A stretch of 64,000 nt of DNA, taken from the NCBI GenBank assembly GCA_002105175.1, contig MCGE01000006.1, forward strand, positions 558,001 through 622,000, written 5' to 3'. Below the pieces are notes generated by a model that had not been told where the DNA came from, did not search any database, and saw only the letters and a list, made by a program, of their open reading frames with translations. The position numbers were made by a program, and so were the translations under genes. Below are positions 43,127 to 44,572 of the stretch, in pieces. The DNA comes from Absidia repens. Its lineage: Eukaryota > Mucoromycota > Mucoromycetes > Mucorales > Cunninghamellaceae. The stretch's first letter is position 1. The number at the start of each line of letters is the position of its first letter.

Positions 43127-44271
43127 CTACAAGATAGAGCAACCAGTACACTTGGATCTCTTATTCCTGAGAACCGACGTCAAAGAAGCTCGAGTAGCGT
43201 GTTCAAACACTTCTTGCACACCATCATTGTATTTGGCCGAGCATTCCTTTGACCAAAAAAAAAAAAAAAAGAAGACATTAATACTGTGTTATCGTCAGTT
43301 TTTTATTTTGTTTGCTACAACTCACCAGATATTTGTAAGCATCAATTTCTCGAGCAACATGCATACCCTATTATAAAAAAAGATAGATGACATAAGTACA
43401 TTTTTGTTCTTTTCTTCTCCTCTTCTGAATAGGGGAAATGGAATATGACTTACTTCTTCATAAGATACAGGTCTTTCTGAATTCCGTTGAAGTTCTTGAA
43501 TAGTACCAGGATTGTTTCGCAAATCTTTCTTACAAGCAACAAGTAGAACGGGCAGTCCTGGACAGAAATGAAGTACTTCAGTGAACCACTTAAAAAAAGA
43601 ATTGTACCCAAGCCAAGATTAGTACGCGATCCACTGAACATTGAATGTGGAGATAATCCTTTCTTTAGTTAACTTACTTTTCCACAAACATTTTCCAAAG
43701 AATCGAGGGAGTCCACAGCGTAGCAAATCAAGATAACGTCAGAGTCAGGATATGACAATGGACGAAGTCTATCATAATCTTCCTGGCCTAACATGAGCAA
43801 AAATAAGGTGAGGGTAGTCAGCCTCTAGTTTTTGTGCGCTTTTATTTCATGTTGATGCAACAAAATGTTACCAGCTGTATCCCAAAGGTTCAATTCCACT
43901 TTCTTCCCATCCACATTCAAGTCAGTTACAGAGTTCTCGAAAACAGTAGGGACGTAGTTCTATGATTATAGTAACATAAAGAGAAGAATATTTAAATGTA
44001 AAATTGGACAGTGATGCGTAGTAAATATGCTTACTTCAGGGTATTTTCCTTGGGAGTGGACCATTAACAAGGAAGTCTATTGACAAAGTAGGAGGAGACG
44101 CAAAGAGGTTACTTTCCTAGTACCAATATCATCCTTCAACCGATTTGCCCTATAAAAACCCCGACTTACCCTATCACAAACCAGCAAGTATCAAGGCACA
44201 ACATATACATATAATAAAAAGGATATGATTAATCGTTATTCTAGCTTGCTTCTTGATCGCTCAGTCCGTGC

Positions 44272-44307
<36 letters not shown>

Positions 44308-44427
44308 ACTCTATAAAAATAAAAAGTAAAAAATGTGAATTCATGAATTCAAAAACAAGGTGTATGACTTACTTCCACAGGCACCATCACCAACAATGAC
44401 CAGCTTTTTTCGAATTACAGAAGACAT
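43127..44427 (-). CDS. Rho-family small GTPase with two predicted 1-nt exons
   Basis: Membrane-bound molecular switch for actin/cell-wall polarity. 197 aa when assembled as 44427-44373, 44310 (one base, A), 44170 (one base, G), 44076-44035, 43959-43872, 43787-43678, 43588-43454, 43367-43326, 43246-43127. Motifs: VIVGDGACG + K + TSLL (P-loop), NYVPTVFEN (switch I), [18 protein letters not shown] (switch II), ACKKDL (G4), [15 protein letters not shown] (G5). It ends [10 protein letters not shown], a CAAX box with terminal Leu, so geranylgeranylation is expected. The P-loop Lys codon is not contiguous: exon 1 ends with A, and the only canonical way to supply A and G is from the two one-base exons. 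Closest to Rho1/Rho2-type sequences; no precise subclass is assigned. Confidence 0.9.

Positions 44428-44524: not shown

Positions 44525-44572
<48 letters not shown>

Follow-up and report, generated by a model that had tools for sequence, protein, structure and literature searches.

A 1-nt exon has been published for the Arabidopsis gene APC11, for which the available parts of the report propose intron definition combined with recursive splicing and sequential intron removal; the same report cites potato invertase as a case in which the downstream intron is removed first, as well as recursive splicing at zero-nucleotide sites (PMC4674806). Two plant studies describe a conserved 1-nt microexon in VPS55 and a neighboring pair of microexons that are 5 and 12 nt long (PMC8831610; PMC11096116). 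The 1-nt exon of Fusarium CYP621A is backed by 18 SRA reads and is presented by its authors as the first fungal case (PMC12940212). Fungi also contain stwintrons, described in the available text as nested spliceosomal introns (PMC5639578), and partial texts report mitochondrial one-base exons between group II introns at Ophiostoma rnl-576/577 (PMC12308204) and between introns of placozoan cox1 (PMC5436844). We found no report of two consecutive 1-nt exons among titles, opening lines of abstracts, and text passages from the open PMC library, a scope that most subscription papers fall outside.

Here, we describe what is very probably such a pair in a diverged Rho1-type GTPase gene of Absidia repens (genome of 47.4 Mb, 79 contigs). 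The window, meaning the whole 64,000-nt stretch of DNA that was analyzed, comprises bases 558001–622000 of contig C56 (2,073,579 bases). With a probability of roughly 0.9, the Lys codon of the P-loop in this gene is spread over three exons: exon 1 contributes its final base, and each of two consecutive 1-nt exons adds one more. The features of the gene are as follows; percentiles refer to 217 control introns.

43127..44427, minus strand: Rho1-type GTPase gene, start to stop codon, nine coding exons, 197 aa
44373..44427, minus strand: exon 1, 55 nt, ending GGA-A, where the final A is Lys codon base 1
44311..44372, minus strand: intron 1, 62 nt, GTAAGT...TTATAG, donor at the 44th and acceptor at the 99th percentile
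44310, minus strand: 1-nt exon A, Lys codon base 2, context TTTTTATAG-A-GTATGT, same place in L010, L011, and L040
44171..44309, minus strand: intron 2, 139 nt, GTATGT...GATAG, donor at the 2nd and acceptor at the 38th percentile, no TACTAAC
44170, minus strand: 1-nt exon G, Lys codon base 3, context GTGATAG-G-GTAAGT, G in L010 and L011, A in L040
44077..44169, minus strand: intron 3, 93 nt, GTAAGT...CAATAG, donor at the 80th and acceptor at the 49th percentile
44035..44076, minus strand: exon 4, 42 nt, beginning after CAATAG with ACT-TCC, the Thr-Ser of GKTS
43130..43959, minus strand: exons 5–9 (43872–43959, 43678–43787, 43454–43588, 43326–43367, and 43130–43246) and introns 4–8

This structure was obtained with a self-written spliced aligner that permits any exon length between GT or GC and AG, and its exons measure 55, 1, 1, 42, 88, 110, 135, 42, and 117 nt. 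Two references, the gene's own protein and Halteromyces Rho1, gave the identical structure with one intact frame, complete to the CAAX box (C-terminal CSIL) and with the P-loop GDGACGKT. The public protein P0001, named GTP-binding protein rhoA [Absidia repens], matches the model at 197/197 residues. It contains the Ras-superfamily domains PF00071 and PF08477, is 73% identical to Halteromyces Rho1 over 98%, and, with Rho1/RhoA as its closest relatives, a GxxxxGK[ST] motif, and a CAAX end, identifies the gene as a Rho1-type small GTPase.

The letters and positions quoted in the original prediction were all recovered. The last base of exon 1 lies at 44373 in GGAA/GTAAGT, A at 44310, and G at 44170, and ACTTCC runs from 44076; a 296-nt gap separates exon 1 from the Thr exon, with introns of 62, 139, and 93 nt. 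Its further statement that the rest of the gene is in phase and intact agrees with the complete nine-exon frame. Each of the two single bases is directly preceded by AG and followed by GT, as in a single-nucleotide exon, and both are required for frame and product: the protein ends after 22, 22, or 31 residues if A, G, or both are omitted. In mature mRNA, GGA-A + A + G + ACT would read Gly-Lys-Thr. When the genome was searched for another copy or an allele, the only match at 100% was the locus itself; the five other matches were short pieces of 66–87% identity. Two T runs of approximately 30 and 43 bases were also observed on the minus strand, at 44273–44302 in intron 2 and at 44527–44569 upstream of the start codon.

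In the recursive splicing known from Drosophila and vertebrates, joining two exons can recreate the donor that the following step uses, as it can here, but AG and GT touch there, no base is added, and the introns are long. APC11 is likewise a nuclear gene with one base between AG and GT that is needed for the frame; its 1-nt exon, according to the available text, is isolated and was proved by cDNA and mutants, whereas the Absidia pair lies within one codon and is known from DNA sequence (PMC4674806). The VPS55 exon, in the accessible descriptions, has also been kept for a long time and is often missed by annotation, with consequent loss of the N-terminus, but it is a single 1-nt exon of plants and algae (PMC8831610; PMC11096116). 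CYP621A comes from a fungal nuclear gene, and its 1-nt exon, a G inside the codon of a conserved motif, is conserved in orthologs; in the part of the paper available, however, it stands as a single 1-nt exon (PMC12940212).

Stwintrons share with the Absidia gene the removal of several introns in consecutive reactions by intron definition, yet the available account places no exon base between their parts, where the Absidia gene has one (PMC5639578). Inspected by eye as a candidate stwintron, the locus did not qualify: none of the introns shares its GT or AG with another, all of these sites are complete, and the product needs the base that separates neighboring introns. The Ophiostoma and placozoan cases, as far as the accessible text describes them, also place a single base between two introns, but they are mitochondrial, and the Ophiostoma introns belong to group II and are not spliceosomal (PMC12308204; PMC5436844).

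We modeled 54 small-GTPase loci in the same genome, 14 from the Rho family (one locus per gene, with overlapping loci dropped) and 40 of Ras/Rab type; 16 further regions lie outside this count. An exon of ≤6 nt is present in 8 of the 54 loci and absent from the other 46, and none was found in the seven models of the Arf control family. Four Rho-type genes (the window gene, L010, L011, and L040) have exons of 1+1 nt, and both Cdc42-type genes (L015 and L016) have exons of 2+2 nt. In the remaining eight Rho-family genes, either a single intron lies close to this part of the P-loop or the place is free of introns. The junctions of the paralogs read as follows.

L010 (C32): GGAA/GTAAGT...TTTGTAG-A-GTATGT...TTTTAG-G-GTAAGT...CAATAG/ACC
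L011 (C67): GGAA/GTAAGT...TTGTTAG-A-GTAAGT...ACATAG-G-GTAGGT...TGGTAG/ACT
L040 (C14), strongly diverged: GGAA/GTAAGT...ATATAG-A-GTAAGT...AAACAG-A-GTATGT...AATTAG/ACA
L016 (C2:683 kb), Cdc42-type: GG/GTAAGT...CAATAG-AA-GTAAGC...TTGTAG-AA-GTAAGT...TTTTAG/ACC, giving GGA-AAA-ACC
L015 (C23:13 kb), Cdc42-type: GG/GTAAGT...ATATAG-AA-GTAAGT...ATATAG-AG-GTAATT...ATTAG/ACC, giving GGA-AAG-ACC

The 1-nt exons are therefore conserved in homologous genes, namely, three further Rho-type paralogs of the same genome, and it is because the paralogs share the pattern that the two 1-nt exons can be considered firm. Together with the 2-nt equivalents in the Cdc42 genes and the public proteins, the four Rho-type genes lend strong support to the consecutive 1-nt exons that had originally been proposed, and the observation is very probably real. 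The introns interrupt the Rho genes after Lys bases 1, 2, and 3 and the Cdc42 genes after the second base of the Gly codon and the first and third bases of the Lys codon, so that two intron positions are common to both groups. This arrangement takes the lower limit of exon size one step further, with two 1-nt exons in one essential codon, in several paralogs, and with 2-nt pairs in Cdc42.

The paralogs also bear on the idea, already named in the original prediction, that exon 1 has lost two bases at its border, whether by faulty sequencing or by a genuine deletion, in what would otherwise be a one-intron junction or a pseudogene. The window gene does form a long branch in the protein tree, which would suit such an account. 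Nevertheless, the GGAA/GTAAGT border and both internal sites recur in L010, L011, and L040, which already contradicts missing bases, and the remainder of the window gene is open. We consider this the least probable of the alternative structures.

A different account of the gap is a single 294-nt intron with a nonstandard end, GGAA/GTAAGT...CAAT/AGACT, in which the AG before ACT is exonic and the codon is again AAG. With this GT-AT-type intron, each of the four Rho-type genes would encode Lys, and an automatic cDNA alignment would draw it in this way, and the public protein is compatible with it and with the two-exon structure alike. Across the four Rho genes, however, such an intron would have to end in AT, AT, GT, and TT, and both Cdc42-type genes would have to supply TTAG as the four bases ahead of ACC, creating a stop codon (GGT-TAG). 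It would also leave the shared internal AG-N-GT sites unexplained. A nonstandard intron is thus very improbable, if slightly less so than the other alternative structures considered here.

To enumerate the splicing paths available, we listed all canonical paths that connect exon 1 with the Thr exon through at most two internal exons, each of ≤12 nt. Exact-length paths encoding Gly-Lys-Thr/Ser numbered three in the window gene, one in L010, two in L011, one in L040, two in L015, and one in L016, and the one-base pair A + A/G was alone among canonical paths in being common to all four Rho genes. The window gene's Lys paths include two that use GC donors and that the paralogs do not share, one through an alternative G exon and the other through a single 2-nt AA exon (atcaag-AA-gcaagc). 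The latter refines the original statement that the gap holds no single 2-nt exon between AG and GT: none of that kind gives Lys, but one with a GC donor exists. As a rival to the pair of 1-nt exons it is highly improbable, marginally more so than the nonstandard intron, since GC donors occur in only 2 of the 217 control introns and an A at acceptor position −3 in approximately 6%; the path is moreover absent in L010 and L040, and the AA exon available in L011 is another one, whose splice site is poor.

We estimated how often the pair of 1-nt exons would arise by chance. In shuffled gaps with bare AG/GT sites, a one-base path of A followed by A or G appeared 65, 50, 26, and 14 times per 5000 for the four Rho genes, and the two Cdc42 genes gave 10 and 9 per 5000. 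With strict consensus sites, the count was 0/5000 shuffles for each gene; the Cdc42 genes themselves depart from the strict pattern. Tiles of 300 nt of real sequence contained the bare pattern in 5 of 426 cases within the window and in 3 of 320 in the flanks, and the strict pattern in 0/426 and 0/320, respectively. The bare pattern in the window gene alone therefore carries a chance of approximately 1%. The four bare shuffle rates multiply to approximately 2e-9 if the genes are independent; they are related, and their intron bodies are little alike.

Pairwise comparison of introns among the four Rho genes gave z < 3 in 45 of 48 cases (the exceptions are 3.4, 3.6, and 3.9), so that the intron bodies are almost unalike, in contrast to the aligned coding bases, which are 70–85% identical. 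Taken with the structure common to the paralogs and the absence of strict pairs in 5000 shuffles, this dissimilarity practically excludes an assembly error. Comparing the three introns within each gene (12 comparisons; z between −2.0 and 2.3) revealed no trace of tandem duplication.

The quality of the splice sites was scored against 217 control introns from the same gene models, in which partial or doubtful models (e.g., L031, L058, L059, L062, and L073) were kept. The control introns have a median length of 85 nt and a 5–95% range of 60–150 nt, and the 62–139 nt of the window gene's introns fall within this usual range. All splice sites of the pair are ordinary except for one weak donor, that of intron 2. 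The gap is thus best described as three ordinary short introns of 62, 139, and 93 nt placed one base apart. Splice sites on both sides of one base could hardly be bound simultaneously, so that the introns most likely leave in succession, by intron definition. Each removal would fuse a single base to its neighbor and clear the way for the next. The locus offers a natural test bed for how the spliceosome deals with mutually exclusive sites, and the order of the three removals should be readable from intermediates.

With regard to this order, the original prediction held that each join recreates a donor and that the result is a near-perfect 5′ splice site. When the exons are joined 5′-to-3′, a usable donor is indeed rebuilt, as recursive splicing demands. 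The description is apt for intron 3, whose donor AAG/GTAAGT reaches the 98th percentile, but not for intron 2, whose donor AAA/GTATGT reaches only the 6th percentile of control donors. The donor score increases by 1.6 bits on joining at introns 2 and 3, and this gain could be taken to favor strict 5′-to-3′ recursive splicing, the mechanism suggested in the original prediction, with introns 1, 2, and 3 removed in turn. It arises because the acceptor's G at donor position −2 is replaced, and nothing else contributes; the same gain comes with any 1-nt exon when the upstream exon ends in A, making the rise at this one position nearly automatic.

Removal in the 3′-to-5′ direction would attach the single bases to exons of normal size equally well, and starting downstream or with the middle intron would serve the same end. 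The exact branch motif candidate TACTAAC is present in four of the six middle introns (L010, L011, L015, and L016, but not the window gene or L040) versus 6 of the 217 controls, and in 1 of the 26 remaining introns in these six genes. This comparison is exploratory, and its p-value of 3e-5 is too favorable because several motifs were tried and the genes are related. In plants, the available part of one analysis reports more reads for removal of the downstream intron first at most microexons (PMC8831610). A strict 5′-to-3′ order is accordingly a doubtful reading of the locus; it accepts both 1-nt exons and goes beyond sequential removal of three short introns solely by specifying the order.

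The shared positions allow a more speculative interpretation, which we regard as unlikely: that introns have long been stacked at the P-loop Gly-Lys codons of Mucorales Rho1 and Cdc42 genes, where they act as a splicing gate on Rho/Cdc42 output. New introns would have arisen at a distance of one or two bases from older ones and been retained, and an active GTPase would depend on three splicing steps within one codon. Any slip would shift the frame and remove the catalytic lysine, giving an all-or-none outcome, and the optimal TACTAAC in the middle intron of four slowly evolving genes might be part of the apparatus. Independently of a gate, the stacked positions bear on the gain of introns beside existing ones.

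In a tree of 42 proteins, the window gene groups with Phycomyces Rho1 (support 95/92) and is flagged as a long branch, L010 and L011 fall near Halteromyces and Cokeromyces with weaker support, and L040 groups with another long row. The four Rho genes do not form a single group in this tree, which can therefore neither date the structure nor show its common origin. We infer that the structure reached the paralogs by descent from a shared ancestor and not by parallel gains.

Searches for the locus in the DNA of other species gave 12 pattern matches in viral contigs and 59 in genome contigs, none of them confirmed. Among the public proteins of A. repens, P0121 is identical to the L040 model in full, and, as in P0001, the Lys is present. 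Most of the other Mucorales Rho1 proteins inspected (e.g., P0041, P0048, and P0119) are complete with Lys and are uninformative on their exons. An A. cylindrospora relative of L040 (P0122) starts M-TSLV, exactly at the Thr exon, and A. glauca Rho1 (P0243) starts at a Met few residues past the start of the Thr exon; both are without exon 1. These two starts, indirect as they are, would fit an unbridged junction in other Absidia species. The pair of 1-nt exons would then explain how automatic annotation loses exon 1 of central signaling genes, as in these A. glauca and A. cylindrospora proteins.

We also noted a few further irregularities. Rho1 of the basidiomycete Meredithblackwellia eburnea (P0257) is annotated MSELRRKLCIKTCLL, with most of the P-loop before GKT absent, and this gap is perhaps another small exon missed in annotation. 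Two Ras-like loci, L045 and L046 (C78), which complete the eight loci with an exon of ≤6 nt, have one 2-nt exon, AG (exons of 48, 40, 2, and 94 nt), and their relatives L050 and L052 have exons of 48, 18, 22, and 96 nt, as if AG were part of the 96-nt exon. Finally, the Rab-like loci L071, L075, and L078 have an 11-nt exon in common, with starting exons of 27 or 24, 22, and 11 nt.
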